From: Blepharisma japonicum
Lineage: Eukaryota; Ciliophora; Heterotrichea; Heterotrichida; Blepharismidae
Assembly (NCBI GenBank): GCA_949751835.1
Contig: CATKHK010000066.1
Span: 204,245 to 268,244 of the forward strand
DNA length: 64,000 bases
Direction of reading: 5' to 3'
Made by a program: the position numbers and the translations under genes. Shown here in pieces: positions 7,695 through 42,782 of the stretch. Position 1 is the first letter of the stretch. The number at the start of each line of letters is the position of its first letter. The notes under the pieces are model-generated. The model had not been told where the DNA came from and ran no database searches. It was given only the letters and a program-made list of their open reading frames with translations.

Positions 7695-7695
7695 G

Positions 7696-7767
7696 AGGGC
7701 GATATCGGAATCGAACCAATTACCTATTGATCTGCAGTCAATTGCTCTACCAATGAGCTAATCACCC
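7696..7767 (-). tRNA. tRNA-Cys(GCA), copy 1
   Basis: A 72-nt cloverleaf. The acceptor stem GGGTGAT pairs with ATCGCCC, the D arm is GCTC/GAGC, and the anticodon stem ATTGA/TCAAT encloses the loop CTGCAGA with anticodon GCA. The T arm carries GGTTCGATTCC, which doubles as the B box. The discriminator base is T, the known identity base for tRNA-Cys. No intron is present. Confidence 0.95.
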
Positions 7768-7887: not shown

Positions 7888-7888
7888 G

Positions 7889-7960
7889 AGGGCGATATCG
7901 GAATCGAACCAATTACCTATTGATCTGCAGTCAATTGCTCTACCAATGAGCTAATCACCC
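7889..7960 (-). tRNA. tRNA-Cys(GCA), copy 2
   Basis: This is identical over 72 nt to the copy at 7696-7767, with the same anticodon GCA and discriminator T. The seven bases 5' of each tRNA and the short 3' flank also match, which indicates a recent tandem duplication with a 193-bp period. The spacer between the copies is otherwise different. Confidence 0.95.
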
Positions 7961-29547: not shown

Positions 29548-31548
29548 TTATCTAACTGTCACAACCTTTGCCAATCCTCTAGGATGATCAGGATCAAGTC
29601 CCTTCATAATACTCAGATAATAAGCCAGCATTTGCATTGGGATTACTGAAAGTAATGCAGTAAGCGGGCCTGCTTCTTCAATTTTAATAATTTTATTTGG
29701 TGGCTTTTCACTTGTTATCAGTGCTGGATCCGATGTAATCACGATTGTCTTTGCACCTCTTCCAGTCACTTCTGCCAATGCTAAGTTCATGAGTTCTTTA
29801 TTGTCATCATTCAATATTATCAAAATAATCGGTGTGCCGTCATTTATCAGCGCAAAAGGTCCATGCTTTAAGGCCCCTCCAGGGTATCCTTCCGCATGGA
29901 CTCTTGTGATTTCTTTGATTTTCAATGCCCCTTCCTTAGCTATAGACTCAGCTAAGCCTCTTCCAAGGACAAACATATGCTCTTCATTTATGATTTCTGA
30001 GGCAATTTCTTTGATGACTTCTTTGTTTTGAGCTATAACTGAGCCAATTTGTAACGGAAGCTTGAGAAGGTGGTTGACGAGGCTTTTTCGCTTTTCTGAG
30101 TCCTCAGGTTTAAGATGGGCGGAGAGCCATAAAGCGATTTCGGTTAAAACGACACAAGAGTTCATAAAGCTTTTGGTGGAGGCGACACCTATTTCTCGGC
30201 CAGAGTTCATGTAGACTCCATGTTTTGTTAGTCTTGCGAGCTGGGATCCAACAACATTGACAATAGAAATAGCGTTAATTCCATTTTTTACTATTTCTGA
30301 AACAGGCTCAATCAAATCTCTAGTTTCACCTGACTGAGATATCGCAATTACTCCTGGATTTTCTTTTGGAATGTCTAATAAAGTTGTTTCTGACGCATCA
30401 AGGGCTTGCACAGAATTCAAGATTTCTAAGCTTTTAAACAAATGGGCGCCAAACATTGCAGCATGATAAGAAGTTCCACATCCAATTATAGCCAAATTTT
30501 TAATTTCAAGCAGTTTGTCTTTGATTTCTTCTAATCCGCCAAGTTTTGCTCCATCACGAATTAATCTTGCACCGAAGTTCATGGCTCTTGCTACTGATTC
30601 TGGCTGCTCTTCAATTTCCTTGATAGTTCAATGTGTGTGGCAGCCTAGGCTTACTTCGCCTTGATTATCGATTTGTTCGATTCGATTTTTTTCAATTTCC
30701 ATTTTTTTAGGATCCAAAGCCCAAATTTCGTCTTCTTCTAAGGCCATATATTTTTTAGTAAATTTGCTAAAAGCTGCCTGCTCACTTCCTACATATAGCT
30801 CATTTTCTCCAATCCCTACAAGCATAGGACTGCCTTTTCTTGCTACTATTATTTGACTTGGCTCATCCTTACTTAAAATTGCAAGACCCCAAGTTCCGTC
30901 TAGTCTTTGGAGGGCTAGTTTTGTGGAATTTTTTAATGAATGTCCTTCATCTAGATACATTCCGATCAGCAGAGCTATTAGTTCGGTGTCTGTTTCGCTT
31001 TTTATTGGTATTTTACACTTTGCAAGGATTGATCGGATTTCGTGCGTATTTGTAATGGTGCCGTTGTGGACAACAAAAATCCTGTTTTTATGGTCAGAAT
31101 GAGGGTGAGCATTTTCATCGCTTACACCGCCATGAGTAGCCCAACGAGTATGACCAATTCCTAAGCAGCTATTTGTGTGTTTATCTGAATTTTGCTTTAT
31201 TTTTTCTATTGAATCAGAAATTTTTAGCCTATCACTTGCAAACTTTGTGACCAAGACGTCTCCATCATGATAAGTTGCAACACCTGCAGAGTCGTAACCT
31301 CGGTTTTGGATTTCTGTAAGGCCATGCAGTAAAACATCGATAGCTTTAGGGTCAGAACCGACATAGCCAATTATTCCACAACTTTCTGATATTTTTTTTC
31401 GGTAGTGATATATTGAGTATGCACCATAAGCTGCAAATAAGACTCTATATAAAGAAAAATCTTTGTGTGTATGAGGAGCAATTGTGGATTTTGAAGGCTT
31501 GATGTATTGCTTGAATAGTCTTGAAATTCTGATAGGGAGTAAATACAT
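29548..31548 (-). CDS. glutamine--fructose-6-phosphate aminotransferase with N-terminal extension
   Basis: A 666-residue enzyme that makes glucosamine-6-phosphate from fructose-6-phosphate and glutamine, the first step of the hexosamine/UDP-GlcNAc route. The Ntn glutaminase domain has CGIIGYVG, RGYDSAG, HTRWATHG, HNGTI and SETDTE; two SIS isomerase domains follow. TGA codes the Trp in HTHWTIKEI, a conserved position. In known GFATs the catalytic Cys is residue 2 and becomes N-terminal after Met removal. Here it is residue 57, behind a basic, partly hydrophobic leader (LYRVLFAAYGAYSIYHY), and no in-frame ATG lies nearer. Proteolytic removal, perhaps after mitochondrial import, would be needed. 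The last residues are VTVR rather than the usual VTVE. Confidence 0.95.
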
Positions 31549-41525: not shown

Positions 41526-42782
41526 ATGAGAAGAGTTGTAGTCACAGGGATGGGCGTGGTAACACCTCTAGGTAACACTCTAACTGAGCTATGATCCAAT
41601 TTACTTTCAGGAGCATCTGGTGTCGTTAAGCTAACAGCCGACGACATCAACGATTTAGACCAAACTGATGTAAAAATCGGTGGCCGAGTCACCTTAGACC
41701 CTGAAATCATGAAAAATTTACCTGTAAGGCATATTTAGTTCGCAAAAAACAAACAAAATGCTATGGCATTCTCAGCAGCTTCCTCGGCACTTGAAGACGC
41801 TAAATGAAATCCTAGCTCTGAGTCTGAAAAAGAACGAACAGGCGTAATCATGGGAGCTACAAAGTCTCAATTATCCCCAGCAGTCTACACAGTAGAACAG
41901 GTCTTAAAAAATGGCTTAAGGTCAGTGCCTAGTCTTTATCATTCCCATCTCTCGATTTTTGGAACCACAGCTAATATTGTAAAAAAATTTGGCTTTAAAG
42001 GTCCCACTAGTGGGTATAGCTCAGCTTGCGCTGCAGGGAGCTGCTCATTAGCAGAGGCCTTTTGGTCAGTCAGATGTGATGAAGCTGATGTTATCGTTGC
42101 TGGGACTTCAGATAATGGCATTCACAATTACTTGTTGAGCGGTCTATCGAGACTTGGAGCACTTAATAAGAGATGTAATGATAGCCCACAGTCAGCATCA
42201 TGTCCTTTTGATATGAAAAGAGATGGGTTTATATCAGCTGATGGAGCTGGATGCTTGATTTTAGAAGAACTAAACCATGCCTTGAGCAGAAATGCATATA
42301 TTTACGGAGAATTAAAAGGAGTTTCATTAAGCTCTGAGTCATTCCATCCGAGCCGACCTCATCCTGAAGGTGAAGGCATAGCAAGAACTATGAAAAGAGC
42401 TTTAGAAATCGCAGAATTGGAGCCTAAAGATATAGACCTAATTCACGCCCATGGCACTTCAACAGTTGAAGGCGACATGTCAGAAGTTATTGCAATTAAT
42501 AATGTATTTGGAAATATCAAGCCAGCTATTATATCAAGCAAAGCAAACTACGGACATATGATGGCAGGAGTAGGGGCTATCCAGTCAGCTGTTTTATTGC
42601 TCTGCATTAAACACAGCATGATCCCTCATCTGATAAACTTAAAGAACCCTGTCCAAGTTAATGACATTGAGCTAGACTATGTGCTAGAACCAAGGGCAAA
42701 AGAAGTAAACGCAGGCGTCACAAATAACGCAGGATTTGGAGGCCTAAACTGCAGCTTGGTTTTTACTAAATATAAAAAATAA
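41526..42782 (+). CDS. 3-oxoacyl-ACP synthase, FabF/KAS II type
   Basis: 413 residues after removing a 15-nt intron (41724-41738). It condenses malonyl-ACP with acyl-ACP in type II fatty-acid synthesis. The Cys-His-His catalytic set is complete: Cys163 in SSACAAGSC, His304 in HAHGTSTVEGD and His339 in KANYGHMMAGVG, nearly the numbering of E. coli FabF. In mitochondria of other eukaryotes this enzyme (OXSM) supports lipoate synthesis. Here the protein opens directly with MRRVVVTGMGVVTPLG and has no visible targeting presequence. Two Trp are coded by TGA. Ends in TAA. Confidence 0.95.
41724..41738 (+). other. 15-nt intron in ketoacyl synthase gene
   Basis: GTAAGGCATATTTAG with an in-frame TAG. 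Removing it joins EIMKNLP to FAKNKQNAMAF in frame. Confidence 0.93.

Follow-up and report, generated by a model that had tools for sequence, protein, structure and literature searches.

The window, by which we mean the whole stretch of 64,000 nucleotides of Blepharisma japonicum DNA that was analysed, carries on its minus strand a GFAT/GlmS gene that is a single open frame in the genome's code as we read it, with TGA as Trp and TAA and TAG as the stops. The codon of W307 is TGA, and under table 11 the gene is split into two ORFs, one of 306 aa. The codon immediately 5' of the start ATG is also TGA, Trp in this code, and the closest upstream in-frame stop is a TAA four codons 5' of the ATG. In Blepharisma stoltei UGA is reported to encode Trp, introns are chiefly of 15 and 16 bp and the genome is of 41 Mbp with 66% AT (PMC9942806); in the genome studied here the AGM1 gene has a 15-nt GT...AG intron (L092:1819-1833) that contains an in-frame TAG. 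Elsewhere in the window lie two tRNA-Cys genes (7695-7767 and 7888-7960, minus strand, 120 bases apart), both with anticodon gca and with equal Rfam scores, and a beta-ketoacyl synthase frame (41763-42782, plus strand) whose match starts at position 93 of the PF00109 profile; the 5' part of this frame is probably either absent or encoded by an exon further upstream. The features of the GFAT gene and its two paralogs are as follows.

29548..31548, minus strand: GFAT/GlmS gene, 666 codons and a stop in a single open frame, with TGA as Trp at residue 307
31381..31548, minus strand: leader of 56 residues, with counterparts of 53 and 55 aa in the paralogs
31459..31548, minus strand: basic N-part, residues 1-30, a possible mitochondrial targeting helix (6 K/R, 1 D/E, helical moment 0.60)
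31408..31458, minus strand: residues 31-47, a helix of moderate hydrophobicity whose highest 17-residue Kyte-Doolittle average is 0.92
31381..31407, minus strand: nine-residue linker HYRKKISES, of equal length in all three copies and ungapped in the alignment
31378..31380, minus strand: TGT codon of the catalytic Cys57, the presumed mature N-terminus, aligned with Cys1 of E. coli GlmS 2j6h
29551..31380, minus strand: the GlmS-type enzyme in its mature form, a glutaminase with two SIS domains, whose 610 aa come close to the length seen in bacteria
L002:1503-3494, minus strand: GFAT copy 2, full-length, 664 aa, with Cys54 and a leader of 53 aa
L003:1367-3367, plus strand: GFAT copy 3, full-length, 667 aa, with Cys56 and a leader of 55 aa

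By family tests the protein of the window is a GFAT. The NCBIfam model TIGR01135 (glmS) scores 528.5 bits against an equivalog cut-off of 418.05 over residues 57-665, two SIS stretches were detected and the class II glutaminase residues are present. Cys57, R135, W136, H139, N162, G163 and D187, which we take to be the glutaminase residues with roles as in E. coli GlmS, are invariant across 42 aligned rows, and this invariance suggests a working glutaminase. The predicted structure (AF2) is closest to 2j6h, with a TM score of 0.83 by query length and 33% identity.

The hexosamine pathway starts with GFAT, usually regarded as a cytosolic enzyme for which removal of Met alone is needed. The sequence confirms the original prediction that the Cys stands at residue 57 and that the sole in-frame ATG preceding it (31546-31548) is 56 codons upstream, and the comparison with relatives bears out that such a leader is unusual for the family, as the start codon lies directly before the Cys in all 81 bacterial or viral GlmS loci (80 ATG, 1 TTG) and none of these bears a leader. 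The 81 comprise the best 80 of 116 relatives in viral_contigs and one confirmed relative from genome_contigs; many are near-duplicates, with 62 distinct over the first 200 residues, and the genome_contigs scan, with two exact peptide patterns, was a weak test. The phage collection gave 50 matching records, whose N-termini form no part of the 81-locus count, and a DNA pattern spanning the cut site matched 0 viral contigs. One other class II amidotransferase of this genome, an asparagine-synthase-like enzyme (L107), starts with Met-Cys, and Met removal is presumably available in this ciliate. Narrow word searches of the open-access literature found, among the titles and abstracts listed and the parts used of PMC9005719, PMC10449743 and PMC5142281, no report of a leader-bearing or mitochondrial GFAT and no earlier description of a GFAT precursor leader.

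The leader of the window copy contains no Met other than its first residue, the next in-frame Met being residue 197. The AF2 model places helices at residues 4-16 and 33-49 with low confidence (low pLDDT at 4-16), and the confident fold begins at about residue 57. Among the 37 ORFs of at least 150 aa in the window, the GFAT ORF is the only one whose first 27 residues include at least five K/R but not a single D/E, and the charge balance before the hydrophobic stretch at 31-47 agrees with the initial description of the leader as basic with a hydrophobic helix.

Searches of the genome itself (45.2 Mb, 224 contigs), which take no account of introns and give scores to the top candidates alone, located GFAT at three places, all leader-bearing, with the Cys at 57, 54 and 56 and a Met-Cys start in none. 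A search with the glutaminase domain (PF13537) matched only these three and one asparagine-synthase-like gene, and neither approach found a leaderless GFAT. All three leaders follow one plan, with a basic N-part that varies in sequence and length (the first 27-30 residues), then a moderately hydrophobic helix and then a linker. Before the helix, the window copy, copy 2 and copy 3 have 6, 6 and 4 K/R and 1, 0 and 0 D/E, with helical moments of 0.60, 0.28 and 0.62, so that the N-part of copy 2 is basic with a weak moment; the Kyte-Doolittle values of the hydrophobic segments are 0.92, 1.50 and 1.12. From the helix to the Cys the copies align ungapped, with nine residues between helix end and Cys in each; the -2 residue is Glu in all three and the -1 residue is Ser, Asn and Ser. 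Over the 26 residues before the Cys, likewise ungapped, nine positions are identical in all three copies, a number reached in 0 of 100,000 shuffles; as shuffling ignores common descent, the result shows homology and a retained register rather than proven selection. Because the identity of the N-parts is only 19-36% and most comparisons are saturated at synonymous sites, selection on the N-part is not proven, and this saturation also makes dN/dS uninformative. The window leader used as a query against the genome matched itself and copy 3 (E 0.017) and missed copy 2. Judged by sequence, the leader is beyond chance, the same anatomy preceding both paralogs found.

Of the partner enzymes, the open frames of PGI (one place), GNA1 (two genes), AGM1 (one place) and UAP show no leader, though these genes may have an upstream exon. 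Since none of them shows a leader, the cytosol is probably where fructose-6-phosphate is produced and glucosamine-6-phosphate consumed, and the product of GFAT would have to reach that compartment. Relocation of the whole pathway is unsupported.

The matrix proteases follow Arg rules, with R at -2 for MPP, at -3 for Icp55 and at -10 for Oct1. None of the three copies has Arg at any of these positions relative to the Cys, and simple cleavage at the Cys in the matrix is therefore unexpected and was rejected. The leader has more in common with a mitochondrial bipartite presequence than with the signal peptide of a secretory protein, and in the stop-transfer route to the intermembrane space a bipartite presequence (basic N-part, hydrophobic stop) is combined with cleavage by IMP (PMC8061763). 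Known Imp1 sites are described as [I/V]-[H/D/F/M]-N followed by D/E after the cut, and the substrates of both IMP subunits as having a hydrophobic -3 residue and a preserved distance from helix to site (PMC8835746). The GFAT sites read SES-C in the window copy, IEN-C in copy 2 and LES-C in copy 3; the I-E-N of copy 2 fits at -3 and -1, the L-E-S of copy 3 has the hydrophobic -3 only, the S-E-S of the window copy fits neither, and the residue after the site is Cys rather than D/E throughout. A hydrophobic segment at a preserved distance from the presumed cut is found in all three. Because the full Imp1 motif is present in none of the three, this is a likeness to, and not an identity with, a stop-transfer precursor: the leaders look like those of intermembrane-space precursors and are not identified as such.

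A gene for an S26 peptidase (G000:C25:275982-276368; L088) of 141 codons exceeds the score threshold of TIGR02227, a model of bacterial signal peptidase I; from its size and host we regard it as IMP-like, and it may have other substrates. No second S26 peptidase gene passed in the search of the genome. As a positive control for a bipartite leader we turned to cytochrome c1, which is cut by IMP in yeast (PMC8835746), and to GPD2, and obtained none from either in this genome: one cytochrome c1 locus (L091) starts straight with a hydrophobic stretch, the frame of another (L090) continues upstream without a stop and includes an earlier Met, leaving its start ambiguous, and GPD2 has an N-terminal hydrophobic stretch only. 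Citrate synthase occurs at nine places, and among the six loci read (L098-L103) a basic, presequence-like start was seen by eye in L103 only.

The reading that we favour, with a confidence a little short of even, is that the GFAT precursor is imported into the mitochondrion and that an IMP-type cut before Cys57 yields a soluble enzyme of the intermembrane space. A GlmS-type GFAT would be made as a precursor whose basic N-part directs it to the mitochondrion and whose hydrophobic helix acts as the sorting (stop-transfer) signal. A protease measuring from this helix would cut nine residues beyond it, between Ser56 and Cys57, and Cys57 would thereby become the free N-terminal nucleophile. The protease would most likely be an IMP-type inner-membrane peptidase, which would leave the enzyme soluble in the intermembrane space, where fructose-6-phosphate and glutamine may be taken in through porin and glucosamine-6-phosphate returned to the leaderless GNA1, AGM1 and UAP. 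An enzyme in this space could reach both sugar phosphates through porin, while a matrix enzyme would need carriers. The original suggestion that the protein is targeted to an organelle and then cleaved precisely in front of Cys57 holds up as the best-supported explanation, two paralogs having the same design; import, the compartment, the protease and the exact cut we infer.

The same suggestion had been offered together with a non-ATG start and a hidden intron or splice form, and these options belong to a reading in which the leader is an annotation artefact and a Met-Cys enzyme is supplied by an alternative start, a splice form or another gene. This reading could draw on the disregard of introns and the scoring of best candidates alone in our genome searches, yet the DNA of the three copies speaks consistently against it. 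The codons before the Cys (AGT, AAC and AGC in the window copy, copy 2 and copy 3) are each two changes from ATG, so that a non-ATG start at Cys is disfavoured and was rejected, no near-cognate codon standing directly before the Cys in any copy. With GT, AC and GC as the dinucleotides next to the Cys codon on its 5' side, no AG-ending intron can give ATG-TGY in any copy, and a hidden intron joining the ATG to the Cys was likewise rejected in all three, there being no AG acceptor at the right place. No GT-AG intron of 15 or 16 nt lies within any of the three leaders, and the candidates of 12-20 nt are of 18 and 13 nt in the window copy, 19 nt in copy 2 and 12 nt in copy 3. With only three GFAT places found in the genome and a leader anatomy conserved across the copies, we consider an artefact the least probable of the explanations and very unlikely indeed.

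The main rival for the cut itself is self-processing, in which the targeting sequence would end in a propeptide and the glutaminase would cut itself before Cys57 in the manner of PurF, with a second protease perhaps just trimming; we regard it as unlikely, though it deserves serious weight. We are aware of no GFAT that processes itself, a free N-terminus is required by the recombinant enzyme, and the conserved spacing from helix to Cys is not needed for self-cleavage. On the other side, the Glu that the three copies share at -2 is reminiscent of the acidic residues before the Cys of PurF. Precedents come from AtGPRAT2, for which a predicted transit peptide is described together with a propeptide whose removal uncovers Cys87, upon expression in E. 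coli as well (PMC7056826), and from class II amidotransferases in general, in which a few residues before the Cys are removed autocatalytically according to a review (PMC9140057). Exposure of the Cys after import, by IMP or by PurF-like self-cleavage, is the outcome that we favour overall. Signal anchors also show a hydrophobic helix near charged residues, and the features measured here are generic, as would suit another organelle route, through a secretory/ER signal anchor or a mitochondrial outer-membrane anchor with another protease cutting. Against this, the hydrophobic core is weak (KD 0.92-1.50) and comes after 27-30 positions that are rich in basic and almost devoid of acidic residues, an arrangement atypical of signal peptides, and the substrate-making and product-using enzymes are leaderless; we judge such a route improbable. 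A retained leader, with the glutaminase blocked and the enzyme anchored in a membrane and using free ammonia, seems to us very unlikely. The hydrophobic helix could serve as the anchor and the SIS domains of related enzymes can use ammonia, but the three copies, diverged as they are, have kept their glutaminase residues.

Under the favoured import and IMP-type cut, the committing step of amino-sugar (chitin) synthesis might be moved to the intermembrane space, with activation dependent on import, a sorting protease that both releases the enzyme and creates its catalytic Cys, and no cytosolic GFAT glutaminase active before import. We put this wider proposal forward as possible but doubtful. GFAT is described as feeding chitin synthesis in insects (PMC10449743), and a title cited in the reference list of that source concerns chitin in cysts of Blepharisma undulans. 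If the proposal is true, organelle sorting and enzyme activation would be one and the same cut, a pathway step would be split from its leaderless partners, and the gene would offer a direct test case of whether a mitochondrial sorting protease can switch on an N-terminal-nucleophile enzyme.

Compared with known systems, the protein resembles GlmS/GFAT (TIGR01135; E. coli 2j6h) in its whole mature chain, catalytic residues, domain order and predicted fold, and differs in that the bacterial and viral relatives have the start codon directly before the Cys whereas in the ciliate copies a leader of 53-56 residues stands in between. Arabidopsis GPRAT2, of PurF type, is likewise a class II enzyme whose N-terminal Cys (Cys87) is uncovered by removal of an extension, but it is a different enzyme in a different organelle (predicted chloroplast transit peptide), its propeptide is reported to be autocatalytically removed, and the portion of the report drawn on here mentions no hydrophobic sorting helix (PMC7056826). 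With stop-transfer precursors, such as cytochrome b2, the GFAT copies share a basic, possibly amphipathic N-part, a hydrophobic segment and a short fixed spacer, together with Asn at -1 in one copy of three; unlike them, the GFAT copies lack D/E after the presumed cut, two have Ser at -1, and the first mature residue would be the catalytic nucleophile itself.
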